Origin: Mesorhabditis belari
Lineage: Eukaryota > Nematoda > Chromadorea > Rhabditida > Rhabditidae
Assembly: GCA_958450365.1 (NCBI GenBank)
Contig: CAUEEP010000937.1
Coordinates: forward strand, 1,054,501-1,118,500
DNA length: 64,000 nt
Direction of reading: 5' to 3'
Below, one piece after another: positions 16,701-19,650 of this stretch. Below the pieces are notes generated by a model, which had not been told where the DNA came from, ran no database searches, and saw only the letters and a program-made list of their open reading frames with translations. Made by a program: the position numbers and the translations under genes. How positions within the stretch are numbered: position 1 is the first letter of the stretch; each line of letters begins with the position of its first letter.

Positions 16701-19650
16701 CGATGGGATTTGTGCCAAAGAAGCGATCAAAGACTCATCGTGGAAGAATAAAGGCGTTCCCCAAGGATGACGCTTCAAAGCCCGTGCATCTCACTGCGTT
16801 CGTCGGATTCAAGGCAGGAATGACGCATATCGTCAGAGATGTGAGTTTGTTTGCTTTTTATAACTATAACTTTCTAAGTGGTTTGTATTTTTTTAAATAC
16901 ACTCATCTACGCTTACTAGTAACGGGTTTTTATGCAAAGATCCTTTATTACATTGTTGATCTATTTGTATTTTTAGGTGGATAAGCCTGGCTCAAAGGTC
17001 AACAAGAAGGAAGTCACTGAAGCTGTCACCATCATTGAGACTCCACCATTGGTCATCGTGGGAATCGTCGGCTACATCGAGACTCCACACGGTCCTCGTG
17101 CTTTCAAGACGGTCTGGGCTGAACATCTTTCTGAGGATTGTCGTCGTCGATTCTACAAGAATTGGTGCGTTTGTTTCTGAAAGACTAACTCTTTGGTACT
17201 TTATTATGTGTTTTGCTTTAGTATCAAACCTTATGATAACTCTCCGCTGTCATTAGACATGAGAGAAAAAGAGCTCAACTCTATTTATCATATAGGTACA
17301 AATCGAAGAAGAAGGCTTTCACCAAGTACGCTAAGAAATGGCAAGATGAAGATGGAAAGAAATCGCTTGAGGCCGATCTGAACAAGATGAAGAGGTACTG
17401 CACCAAGATTCGCGTCATTGCTCACACTCAGGTATGGTTTGATTCGTATCATTACGTTTAACAATGTAATGGGCAATGACGATAGACTGATGCCTACAGT
17501 TGTGAGGATTACACAATCAGTCAATGTTGCCTTCCTTCTGAGCCCGAGTTTTCCTAAAAATTAATTTATTTGGTTCCGAAAACATCACTGGTGTTTTCTG
17601 TTTAGCAAAAGCTGTTGAAGAAGCGCGACAAAAAGGCACACATTGTCGAAATTCAAGTCAATGGAGGAACTATCGAGGACAAAGTTAACTGGGCTCGTGA
17701 ACACCTCGAGAAGCAAGTGCCAATCGATAGCGTCTTCTCACAAGATGAGCTCATCGACACCATTGGAGTTACCAAAGGACACGGATTCAAGGGAGTCACC
17801 AGCCGTTGGCACACCAAGAAGCTTCCCAGAAAGACTCACAAGGGTCTCCGAAAGGTGACGTTGCATTAAATAATTAGAATTTAGTAATTGTTTAGGTTGC
17901 TTGTATCGGAGCTTGGCATCCATCTCGTGTTCAGTTCACAGTCGCTCGTGCCGGTCAGAAAGGATACCACCATCGTACTGAGATGAATAAGAAGATCTAC
18001 CGCATTGGCCGCTCATGTGAGACCCCGGAAGGCAAAAACAACGGAGCGACCGAGTTTGATGTTACCGAGAAGACTATCAACCCAATGGTGTGTTTCTACT
18101 TTAAAATTTTTTTATCTGGCAATGATGTGCAAAGTAGTGGCCCTATAACACTTGTGAGGAAAGAATACACTGAACTGAGCCGGAAAGAAATTATTTTGCT
18201 GTGCGATCAATTGTACAATTATAAAATGTTTCTGTTTAGGGAGGCTTTCCTCACTATGGAATCGTCAAGCAGGACTTCGTCATGATTCGTGGATGCTGCC
18301 TCGGAACCAAGAAAAGGCCCATCACACTCCGCAAATCACTCTACACTCATACGAAGCGCTTCGCCTTCGAGAAGATCAACCTCAAGTGGATCGACACCTC
18401 TTCCAAATTCGGACATGGACGTTTCCAAACTGCTGCCGAAAAGAAGACTTTCATGGGAAAACTCAAGAAAGATTTCCTCGCCGAAAAGGAAAGCGTATAG
18501 ATTTAAAGGTTTTTGTTATGTTTGAAATAAATTGTTGACTTCTGTGCTAAAGTTGCAGCTAATAAAAAGAAATTACATGTAAAAGGACGACTTTAACACT
18601 GACACGCATGCAGAGTGAATTTGAATACGCAAATGCTACCTGCTCTCGGCATCTTGACCTCGTTCCCACTCCAAGGCCGCTGATAATGGAGCTCCGAAGA
18701 CTGATCGCCGTTCATCTATTCATTTGTTATCAAGCGGATTCGGTAGTGAACTCACCATCCGTACTACAAGACGATGGTCGTCTTGTCACTTCTGAGCCTC
18801 CAATTCCAAGCCTTGTCGCTTTCATCAATTTCTGCCGCTTCATTCGAAGAGTTTGAAACGCGTCTAGAAGTTTGCGTTTCAATTTATAAGCTCTTGATTC
18901 TACCTTTTTGTCTATGCAAGGAGATACCAGGCAGCATTCTCGCAAGTGTTGCCGTTGCGACAGATCGTAACGCGGCTCTTTCAGCAGCTGATAGCGTTTC
19001 CAGCCGTGAACCACGGAGGACTACCTCGCTTCCATCAACACTTCTCCATGTAGCCGAGTCCTGGAATCGATTGAGGCTTAAAAAGCTTAATTTTCCAATC
19101 CCAATATTGTTCGTTTCAGTTTTTATTCACCTGGCTCCTCCACGCCGAATCCGTGCTACTCGAGGCACTCGTGCTGCTCGCGTGCGAGAAATGCATGTAT
19201 TTCGGTTTGAGTTTCCACAAAATCTTTTGCGACGAATATTTCCAACCCTCAGAAATGCTGCTGTAAATAGAGGATCTATAGAAAGAGTGATGTGGGCTTG
19301 GTAAAGGAAAAATGAGGGCTTTTTGAGTCGATTGAACTGAGGTTGGAAATTGAACATCTTGAGATGGCATTTTGGCATGTTACTCAAACTATTCATCTGC
19401 CTTATTTAATTGGAAATCTTGCGAAATGTAAAAACGAAGAGTACTGTACTAAATTTTCACATTTAATCGATCAGGCAGATAGCTAAAGTTCCGATTTTTT
19501 ATATTCTTATATTCCTCTATACTCTGTAGCTTTTTCGCACCTGCTTGCCGATAGTGGAGTTGCTGGCAGTGCCATCGGCGATGGCTCATCAACGAAACCC
19601 GAGGAGTCTCCCGAGTCACCGAGAAACCCCACTCGAGCGCTGCCCGGAAT
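10727..19650 (-). CDS. RhoGAP domain protein, ARHGAP6-like, 18 exons
   Basis: Exons in transcript order: 19650-19541, 19275-19131, 19060-18904, 18863-18756, 18715-18640, 16137-16078, 16035-15939, 14870-14792, 14687-14610, 14319-14213, 14165-14063, 13304-13201, 12872-12831, 12525-12364, 12317-12217, 12013-11943, 11143-11067, 10849-10727 (TGA). Every junction is GT-AG and in phase. The total is 1800 nt (599 aa). The GAP domain spans about residues 285-476: VPRVVDSC, then GLFRVAGSAKRCRMLR with the arginine finger near residue 312, DVATVLKEYLRDLPQSLLP, and GNRMDARNLATVFAP with the conserved Asn. N-terminal LSAAERAALRSVA and VFGAPLSAALE, and C-terminal IPRELQNKMLTRM, match the ARHGAP6 pattern. It should stimulate GTP hydrolysis by a Rho-family GTPase (partner unknown). 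The true start codon was not found and may lie beyond the poly-G block. Exons 6-7 have a second open frame. Exon 1 is the least certain. Confidence 0.92.
11067..11450 (-). pseudogene. tRNA-like fragment with duplicated segment (about 11335-11440)
   Basis: In intron 16 of the RhoGAP gene, minus-strand sequence ends with a T-arm-like part (CTCCAGTTCGATTCCCC). It is preceded by two copies of a segment containing GGCGATAGTGCGTCAGGCTA, which resembles the 5' half of a tRNA (D arm to anticodon). The halves do not fold into one cloverleaf, so it is a broken tRNA-related repeat. Confidence 0.35.
12060..12190 (+). repeat. 12-bp array (tgtactttatac)
   Basis: Tandem copies of tgtactttatac with point variants lie in intron 15 of the RhoGAP gene. 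Confidence 0.85.
12925..13115 (+). repeat. 14-bp array (ttattagtctgtct)
   Basis: Tandem copies of ttattagtctgtct and ttgttagtctctct lie in intron 12 of the RhoGAP gene. Confidence 0.85.
13505..13945 (+). mobile_element. Two SINE-like copies with tRNA-related heads
   Basis: Copy one at 13520-13690 has the hairpin aaacccgtctaactgcgggt, a tRNA-like head (CTGTGGCGCAGCCAGGAGTG, then GAGTTCGACCCCC) and aatttcgaattttttaattt. Copy two at 13695-13945 has the same hairpin, a decayed head (ATGGAGCAGTGGATAGCGTG) and a complete tail (acagacagacagacggacag, then tatatatagtagatag). It matches the element at 4560-4890. It lies in intron 11 of the RhoGAP gene. Confidence 0.65.
15148..15582. mobile_element. 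MITE with GCTAGCAAAAGCGCC inverted ends
   Basis: The left end GCTAGCAAAAGCGCC is repeated exactly inverted at the right (ggcgcttttgctagc). The subterminal parts also pair, with several copies of the motif gcgcaaa/gcgtcaaa. It is non-coding, and it lies in intron 7 of the RhoGAP gene. Confidence 0.75.
16651..16663 (+). promoter_or_regulatory. Probable SL trans-splice acceptor and short 5' UTR of rpl-3
   Basis: Polypyrimidine tttactctttag ends at 16655, followed by GGTATAAG and the ATG. No matching upstream donor is evident, and nematode ribosomal protein mRNAs are commonly SL1 trans-spliced, so this is more likely a trans- than a cis-acceptor. Confidence 0.6.
16664..18500 (+). CDS. rpl-3: 60S ribosomal protein L3 (uL3), complete, 6 exons
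   Basis: Exons 16664-16840, 16977-17164, 17296-17431, 17606-17854, 17896-18087, 18240-18500 (TAG) give 1203 nt and 400 aa, matching the usual nematode length of about 401. The protein starts MSHRKFSAPRHGSMGF and contains LTAFVGFKAGMTHIVRD, GVTKGHGFKGVTSRWHTKKL (the basic tip that reaches the peptidyl transferase centre) and INLKWIDTSSKFGHGRFQT. All splice sites are GT-AG and in phase. An acceptor-like ctctttag ends at 16655, nine bases before the ATG, which suggests SL trans-splicing. AATAAA signals lie at 18526 and 18561. The gene is intact, and its third positions are more C-rich than in its neighbours, as expected for high expression. It lies inside intron 5 of the minus-strand RhoGAP gene. 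Introns 3 and 5 hold C/D snoRNAs. Confidence 0.99.
17468..17548 (+). ncRNA. C/D-box snoRNA, SNORD83-like, in rpl-3 intron 3
   Basis: Box C is ATGACGA (17476-17482) and box D is CTGA (17538-17541), with a terminal stem GGGC/GCCC directly outside. The 13 bases before box D (17525-17537, TGTTGCCTTCCTT) pair with the universally conserved 18S rRNA segment AAGGAAGGCAGCA, with one G-U pair. By the box D plus five rule the methylated base is the A of AAGGA, which is Am468 in human numbering. As I recall, that site is assigned to SNORD83A/B, hosted by RPL3 in mammals, so both host and target agree. A possible C' box is GTGAGGA (17502-17508). Confidence 0.85.
18115..18184 (+). ncRNA. C/D-box snoRNA candidate in rpl-3 intron 5
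   Basis: Box C-like ATGATGT (18122-18128) and box D CTGA (18175-18178) are closed by a six-pair stem TCTGGC/GCCGGA (one G-U). A C'-like GTGAGGA sits in the middle, as in the snoRNA of intron 3. The length of 70 nt is typical. The guide before box D (AGGAAAGAATACACTGAA) did not match an rRNA segment I could recall, so the target is unassigned. Confidence 0.65.
18526..18566 (+). terminator. Polyadenylation signals of rpl-3
   Basis: AATAAA at 18526-18531 (25 bases after the stop) and again at 18561-18566. The nearest exon of the opposite-strand RhoGAP begins at 18640, so the two transcripts need not overlap in exons. Confidence 0.75.

Follow-up and report, generated by a model that had tools for sequence, protein, structure and literature searches.

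A U83/snR52-type box C/D snoRNA in an rpl-3 intron of the nematode Mesorhabditis belari

Introduction

Can a guide RNA have stayed with one host gene since nematodes and vertebrates parted? The question is raised by an intron of rpl-3, the gene of ribosomal protein uL3, in the rhabditid nematode Mesorhabditis belari. The window (the whole stretch of DNA that was analysed, 64,000 nucleotides, nt) is part of a 2,426,056-base contig of the 207.6-megabase (Mb) assembly. In the original prediction, intron 3 was said to hold a box C/D small nucleolar RNA (snoRNA) of the SNORD83 (U83) type, directing methylation of the 18S ribosomal RNA (rRNA) at the A equivalent to human Am468. Mammalian SNORD83 being hosted by RPL3 as well, the host-guide pairing was proposed to predate the nematode-vertebrate split. 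We find the observation correct in nearly all details and the evolutionary claim reasonable but unproven. Very probably, the element is an intronic box C/D snoRNA of the U83/snR52 functional type, guiding methylation of the A468 equivalent. Judged from its sequence, it is an ordinary, well-conserved C/D guide RNA of a known type, new for M. belari as the predicted guide of this site.

Anatomy of the intron-3 snoRNA

The host gene and the parts of the snoRNA are the following.

16664..18500, forward strand: rpl-3 (uL3), the host gene, with exons 16664-16840, 16977-17164, 17296-17431, 17606-17854, 17896-18087 and 18240-18500
17432..17605, forward strand: rpl-3 intron 3 (GTATGG...TTTAG), the host intron; boundaries verified by exon joining and translation
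17471..17545, forward strand: box C/D snoRNA gene with a U83/snR52-type guide, 75 nt, placed by boxes, end stem, guide, copy alignment and scan
17471..17474, forward strand: 5' side of the terminal stem, GGGC, pairing with GCCC at 17542-17545; 2 of 4 pairs are changed on both sides in copy B'
17476..17482, forward strand: C box AUGACGA, differing from RUGAUGA at one position and invariant over the four aligned copies
17485..17491, forward strand: 5' side of an internal stem, GACTGAT, pairing with ATCAGTC at 17516-17522; kept in 4/4 aligned copies, with one G.U
17502..17508, forward strand: C'-like box GTGAGGA (GUGAGGA in RNA), invariant across the four aligned copies
17525..17537, forward strand: 13-nt guide, whose base 17533, at D+5, is paired with the 18S A predicted to be methylated
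17538..17541, forward strand: D box CUGA (CTGA in DNA), with the guide directly 5' of it

The gene has six exons, which when joined give 400 codons before the stop and translate without an inner stop; all five introns (5/5) are of the GT-AG type. Its protein is 94% identical to M. belari protein P0001 (the best among 120 matches listed) and 91% identical to M. spiculigera protein P0003 (the third among the same 120). The predicted C/D snoRNA, its guide and its host intron all held on inspection; the element is the same one, its proposed span of 17468..17548 being trimmed to 17471-17545. Besides the D box, a 4-base-pair (bp) end stem joins boxes C and D in 4/4 aligned copies. The 3' end of the snoRNA is separated from the 3' splice site by 60, 57, 59 and 58 nt in copies A, B, B' and C, respectively, where A is the window copy.

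Guide pairing with 18S rRNA

As had been claimed, the guide has 13 nt; it forms 13 bp with the 18S segment AAGGAAGGCAGCA, 12 of them Watson-Crick and one G.U. The D+5 base is paired with the fifth letter of this target, an A; for assignment to the U83/snR52 site, at least 10 bp with an A at D+5 was required, and the 13 bp include the single G.U. We take this residue to be the equivalent of human A468 (yeast A420). The human number 468 fits with Cm462, given as the U14 site in a published table: in chicken the U14 and U83 sites (C-423 and A-429) are 6 nt apart, and the predicted A of M. belari likewise lies six bases 3' of a C. In the chicken table, 18S-A-429 is assigned, with 13 nt, to snR52 / snoR52Y / U83a/b, and in the Neurospora table 18S-Am417 is assigned to snR52 / U83, so that the register and both tables place the predicted site at the U83/snR52 site, in accordance with the original prediction.

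The 18S-like loci of M. belari were located by the 16-mer AAGGAAGGCAGCAGGC, which occurs at 16 genome places; 15 of these were examined (C552:4310719 was left out). Of 8 such loci inspected, 7 contain the target and its flank (CAACCACATCT...GGCGCGC) as well as the local 18S sequence CAACCACATCTAAGGAAGGCAGCAGGCGCGC. No intact 18S gene turned up in the assembly: among nine loci scanned with Rfam, the longest match was 1,522 bases, the 5'- and 3'-end motifs of 18S occur in none of the loci L001-L017, and the 5' motif has 0 matches genome-wide. Partial 18S- and 28S-like fragments are dispersed over many contigs (L001-L017, L038-L043).

Both strands of the window were scanned for elements combining a C box, a D box and an end stem with 10 bp or more of pairing to 18S, criteria set post hoc with the candidate already known; the 18S sequence came from locus L005, which is near full length (1,489 bases) and not an intact gene. 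The sole element returned was the intron-3 snoRNA. Across 100 dinucleotide-shuffled versions of the window, a single hit with 10 bp or more arose, and none reached 13 bp.

Copies of the snoRNA in the genome

A DNA search of the genome with the 75-nt query gave six places, and all of them (6/6) lie within rpl-3 loci. The copies are spread over five such loci and range from intact to decayed.

Copy A, forward strand: window, rpl-3 intron 3, 17471-17545
Copy B: equivalent intron of a second rpl-3 gene that lies at a distance of 1.08 Mb and encodes the intact protein P0001 of 401 amino acids
Copy B': extra intron of the second rpl-3 gene, L022 1645-1830 (G000:C712, ~2.1546 Mb), boxes and guide intact
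Copy C: equivalent intron of an rpl-3 pseudogene, L020 (G000:C551, ~750 kb), snoRNA intact
Copies D and E: two further truncated rpl-3 copies, mutually 98% alike, with one guide base and the D box changed

Guide and boxes are retained in 4/6 copies (A, B, B' and C). The intron position of the snoRNA is identical in the window gene, paralog B and pseudogene C, which lacks its first part and has frame changes and stops in its exons. Copies D and E, perhaps alleles or a recent duplicate, have lost the D box and were found by the 75-nt search, beyond the set given by the exact 14-mer of guide and D box, TGCCTTCCTTCTGA. This 14-mer occurs at 6 genome places (1 for the reversed pattern), and 4/6 are in rpl-3 loci. 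The two other places, on C78 and C546, were rejected as snoRNA copies; they share one repeat unrelated to rpl-3.

The snoRNA is conserved above the flanks of its intron. Between A and B, 69/75 positions of the snoRNA are identical versus 63/90 in the flanks (Fisher p 0.0004), and the same excess is seen for A and C (p 0.011) and for B and C (p 5e-6). In the four aligned copies the stem pairs are complete (44/44 cells paired), whereas slid versions reach at most 36.4%. Since the split of C and D, copy C has acquired changes in 0 of 77 snoRNA columns and 5 of 204 columns outside, and D has 5 and 5, both counts resting on few events. Taken together, the flank-exceeding conservation, the stem pairing, the near-constant distance to the splice site and the finding of copies in rpl-3 only argue for a working snoRNA.

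The intron that carries B' has no counterpart at that place in the window rpl-3 gene. It may have been gained by copying a snoRNA-bearing intron, or a corresponding intron may have been lost elsewhere.

Anatomy, complementarity to 18S, conservation over the rpl-3 copies and confinement of the copies found to rpl-3 are direct observations. The steps from transcription and processing to the protein complex and the methyl mark are inferred, and we propose the following course. The snoRNA would most likely be released from the spliced intron 3 and associate with fibrillarin and its partner C/D proteins; its D-box guide would then pair over the 13 bp with 18S and direct a 2'-O-methyl group to the A468 equivalent.

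Family assignment

At the gathering score, Rfam has 0 matches in the whole window. The bit scores of the window copy, with the gathering scores in brackets, are 26.5 for RF01179 (50), 23.9 for RF01195 (45), 17.9 for RF00593 (35) and 17 for RF01175 (55). The top models, all far below gathering, are of the U83 family in the case of A, B and B'; for copy C they belong to snR52 or U83. By its guide the element is a U83/snR52-type RNA; by the Rfam cut-off it is no formal member.

With vertebrate SNORD83A/B (U83a/b) it has in common the D-box guide block TGCCTTCCTTCTGA, which also stands in the Rfam consensus sequences of snoU83, snoU83B and snoU83D, the same 18S A according to the chicken table, and RPL3 as the host in human. 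Most of the sequence outside the guide differs. The predicted RPL3 residence of the mammalian RNAs is supported: the sponge paper gives RPL3 introns 5 and 7 for human SNORD83A/B, compared with intron 3 in M. belari (own numbering each), and mouse Snord83b is annotated with Rpl3. The RNA snR52 has the same 18S site, and RF01195 and RF00335 belong to the best-scoring Rfam models for the M. belari RNA; the genomic settings of the two differ, and yeast snR52 also guides 25S Um2921, whereas no second guide was recognised in the M. belari RNA. The SNORD83-like RNA of sponges is described as most similar to human SNORD83A/B with a conserved guide site and, like the M. belari RNA, lies in an intron of a ribosomal-protein gene, but this gene is RPP0 and not rpl-3.

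Several results weigh against the assignment. The C box (UGACGA) deviates from the consensus UGAUGA in all four aligned copies, and the best Rfam score per copy is 23.8-26.5 bits versus gathering scores of 45-55. In the genome-wide search with the snoU83 model (RF01179), for which 56 of 62,712 first-look candidates were scored, the window copy (E 3.1) is the second of 3 matches, none over the cut-off, and is outranked by a chance place; the matches at C551:3094021 and C567:285715 were dismissed as chance, since no CTGA directly follows the guide-like stretch. At E up to 10 the same model has matches in 11/14 control prokaryote genomes, 0 of them over the cut-off. The guide identity of A, B, B' and C is given by construction, as these copies were first found by the exact 14-mer, and with four sequences the covariation control is weak (32/500 column shuffles equal the observed value).

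The off-consensus C box, the scores below every Rfam gathering score and the weak genome-wide score would also suit a fortuitous run of C/D-like boxes within the intron, with no RNA gene. Such a run is, however, hard to reconcile with the shuffled windows, the conservation above the flanks, a guide that falls exactly into register with a known site and an end stem compensated in the second-intron copy B', and we consider it extremely improbable. Little more probable, in our judgment, is a real C/D snoRNA that acts mainly in something other than 18S methylation, such as chaperoning of pre-rRNA or regulation of rpl-3 splicing. The target of SNORD83 is termed unknown in the sponge paper, and the neighbouring intron 2 has features of regulated splicing (see below), but the 13-bp guide stands in D+5 register at a site given to U83/snR52 in both the chicken and Neurospora tables.

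Age of the host link

That the RPL3-U83 pairing predates the nematode-vertebrate split, the host being shared with mammals by descent, is plausible, and we lean very slightly towards it. In its fuller form, to which we give an even chance, the U83 guide would have been kept with RPL3 since the common ancestor, hopping among the introns of this gene, and would still be hopping in M. belari; the intact copy C may then mark a broken rpl-3 gene that is now only a snoRNA host. Residence in RPL3 is found for the window copy and for every genome copy recovered.

Against descent stand several points. The U83-like RNAs of sponges sit in RPP0, in different introns in different sponges. M. belari has, with B', a second copy in another rpl-3 intron. 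A survey of 44 genomes reports snoRNA-host links to be unstable over deep time, and snR52 could not be placed there in the eukaryote ancestor. The hosts of chicken U83 are given as LOC771432 and chr1_11.94, not named RPL3.

Ribosomal-protein genes are favoured hosts, and RPL3 could therefore have been entered twice. The snoRNA would in that case be real, and its RPL3 host in nematodes and mammals coincidental, a mobile guide having entered rpl-3 independently; this we hold to be a serious possibility, somewhat short of even. It fits the varying sponge introns in RPP0 and the second rpl-3 intron occupied in M. belari. In the same survey no intronic snoRNA position can be followed back to the ancestor of eukaryotes, and its authors favour drift of snoRNAs among hosts of broad expression; in fly S2 cells ribosomal-protein genes make up 73/239 hosts (30%) according to a 2026 preprint. 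What independent entry does not readily account for is the choice of the same gene despite many possible hosts, and the 14-mer and 75-nt searches found no copy outside rpl-3 loci in the M. belari genome.

Our literature search found neither the positions of the human U83 introns on the RPL3 protein nor a U83 host in flies or Caenorhabditis, and no paper joining SNORD83 with A468; SNORD83, RPL3 and Caenorhabditis came up together in one paper, that on sponges. F13B10 is the sequence name of C. elegans rpl-3. No paper on F13B10 and a snoRNA was found, the main nematode survey (Zemann 2006) lying outside the search, and an earlier C. elegans annotation is possible.

Neighbouring introns of rpl-3

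Intron 2 (17165-17295) resembles, in sequence, a structured switch for unproductive splicing. Use of an upstream acceptor at 17221 (a 57-nt intron) would shift the frame and bring translation to a premature stop at 17379-17381. A predicted hairpin, TATGATAA/TTATCATA, abuts the productive acceptor at 17295 and is conserved in paralog B (65/74 identity between the window gene and paralog B in the hairpin region versus 39/57, p 0.009). Unproductive splicing of C. elegans rpl-3 was reportedly described by Mitrovich and Anderson in 2000.

Intron 5 holds a further element.

18115..18184, forward strand: second C/D-like element, separate from the intron-3 snoRNA and of uncertain target; placed by boxes, stem and copies

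It has a 6-bp end stem (one T.G) and is also present in paralog B and in D/E; in D and E its D box reads CTGG. Its Rfam matches are weak and mixed, mostly C/D. The stretch AAAGTAGTGG is complementary to 10 nt (CCACTACTTT) in six fragments that look 28S-like; the D' box is non-canonical. In pseudogene C (L020) a repeat with inverted ends has been inserted into the element and divides it. Its origin as a duplicate of the intron-3 snoRNA was considered and found unsupported, because box-keeping shuffles score as high in 179/1000 cases (whole shuffles in 3/1000).

Implications

Through this snoRNA M. belari gains a predicted guide for a site that the published tables assign to U83/snR52 in vertebrates and fungi. 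Its six copies in five rpl-3 loci, intact to decayed, make the species a compact natural experiment. Host fidelity versus drift of snoRNAs is an open question, and the RPL3-U83 pairing, with one guide, one host and many sequenced animals, makes it testable. If U83 has indeed stayed with RPL3, it would depart from the instability reported for links between snoRNAs and their hosts.
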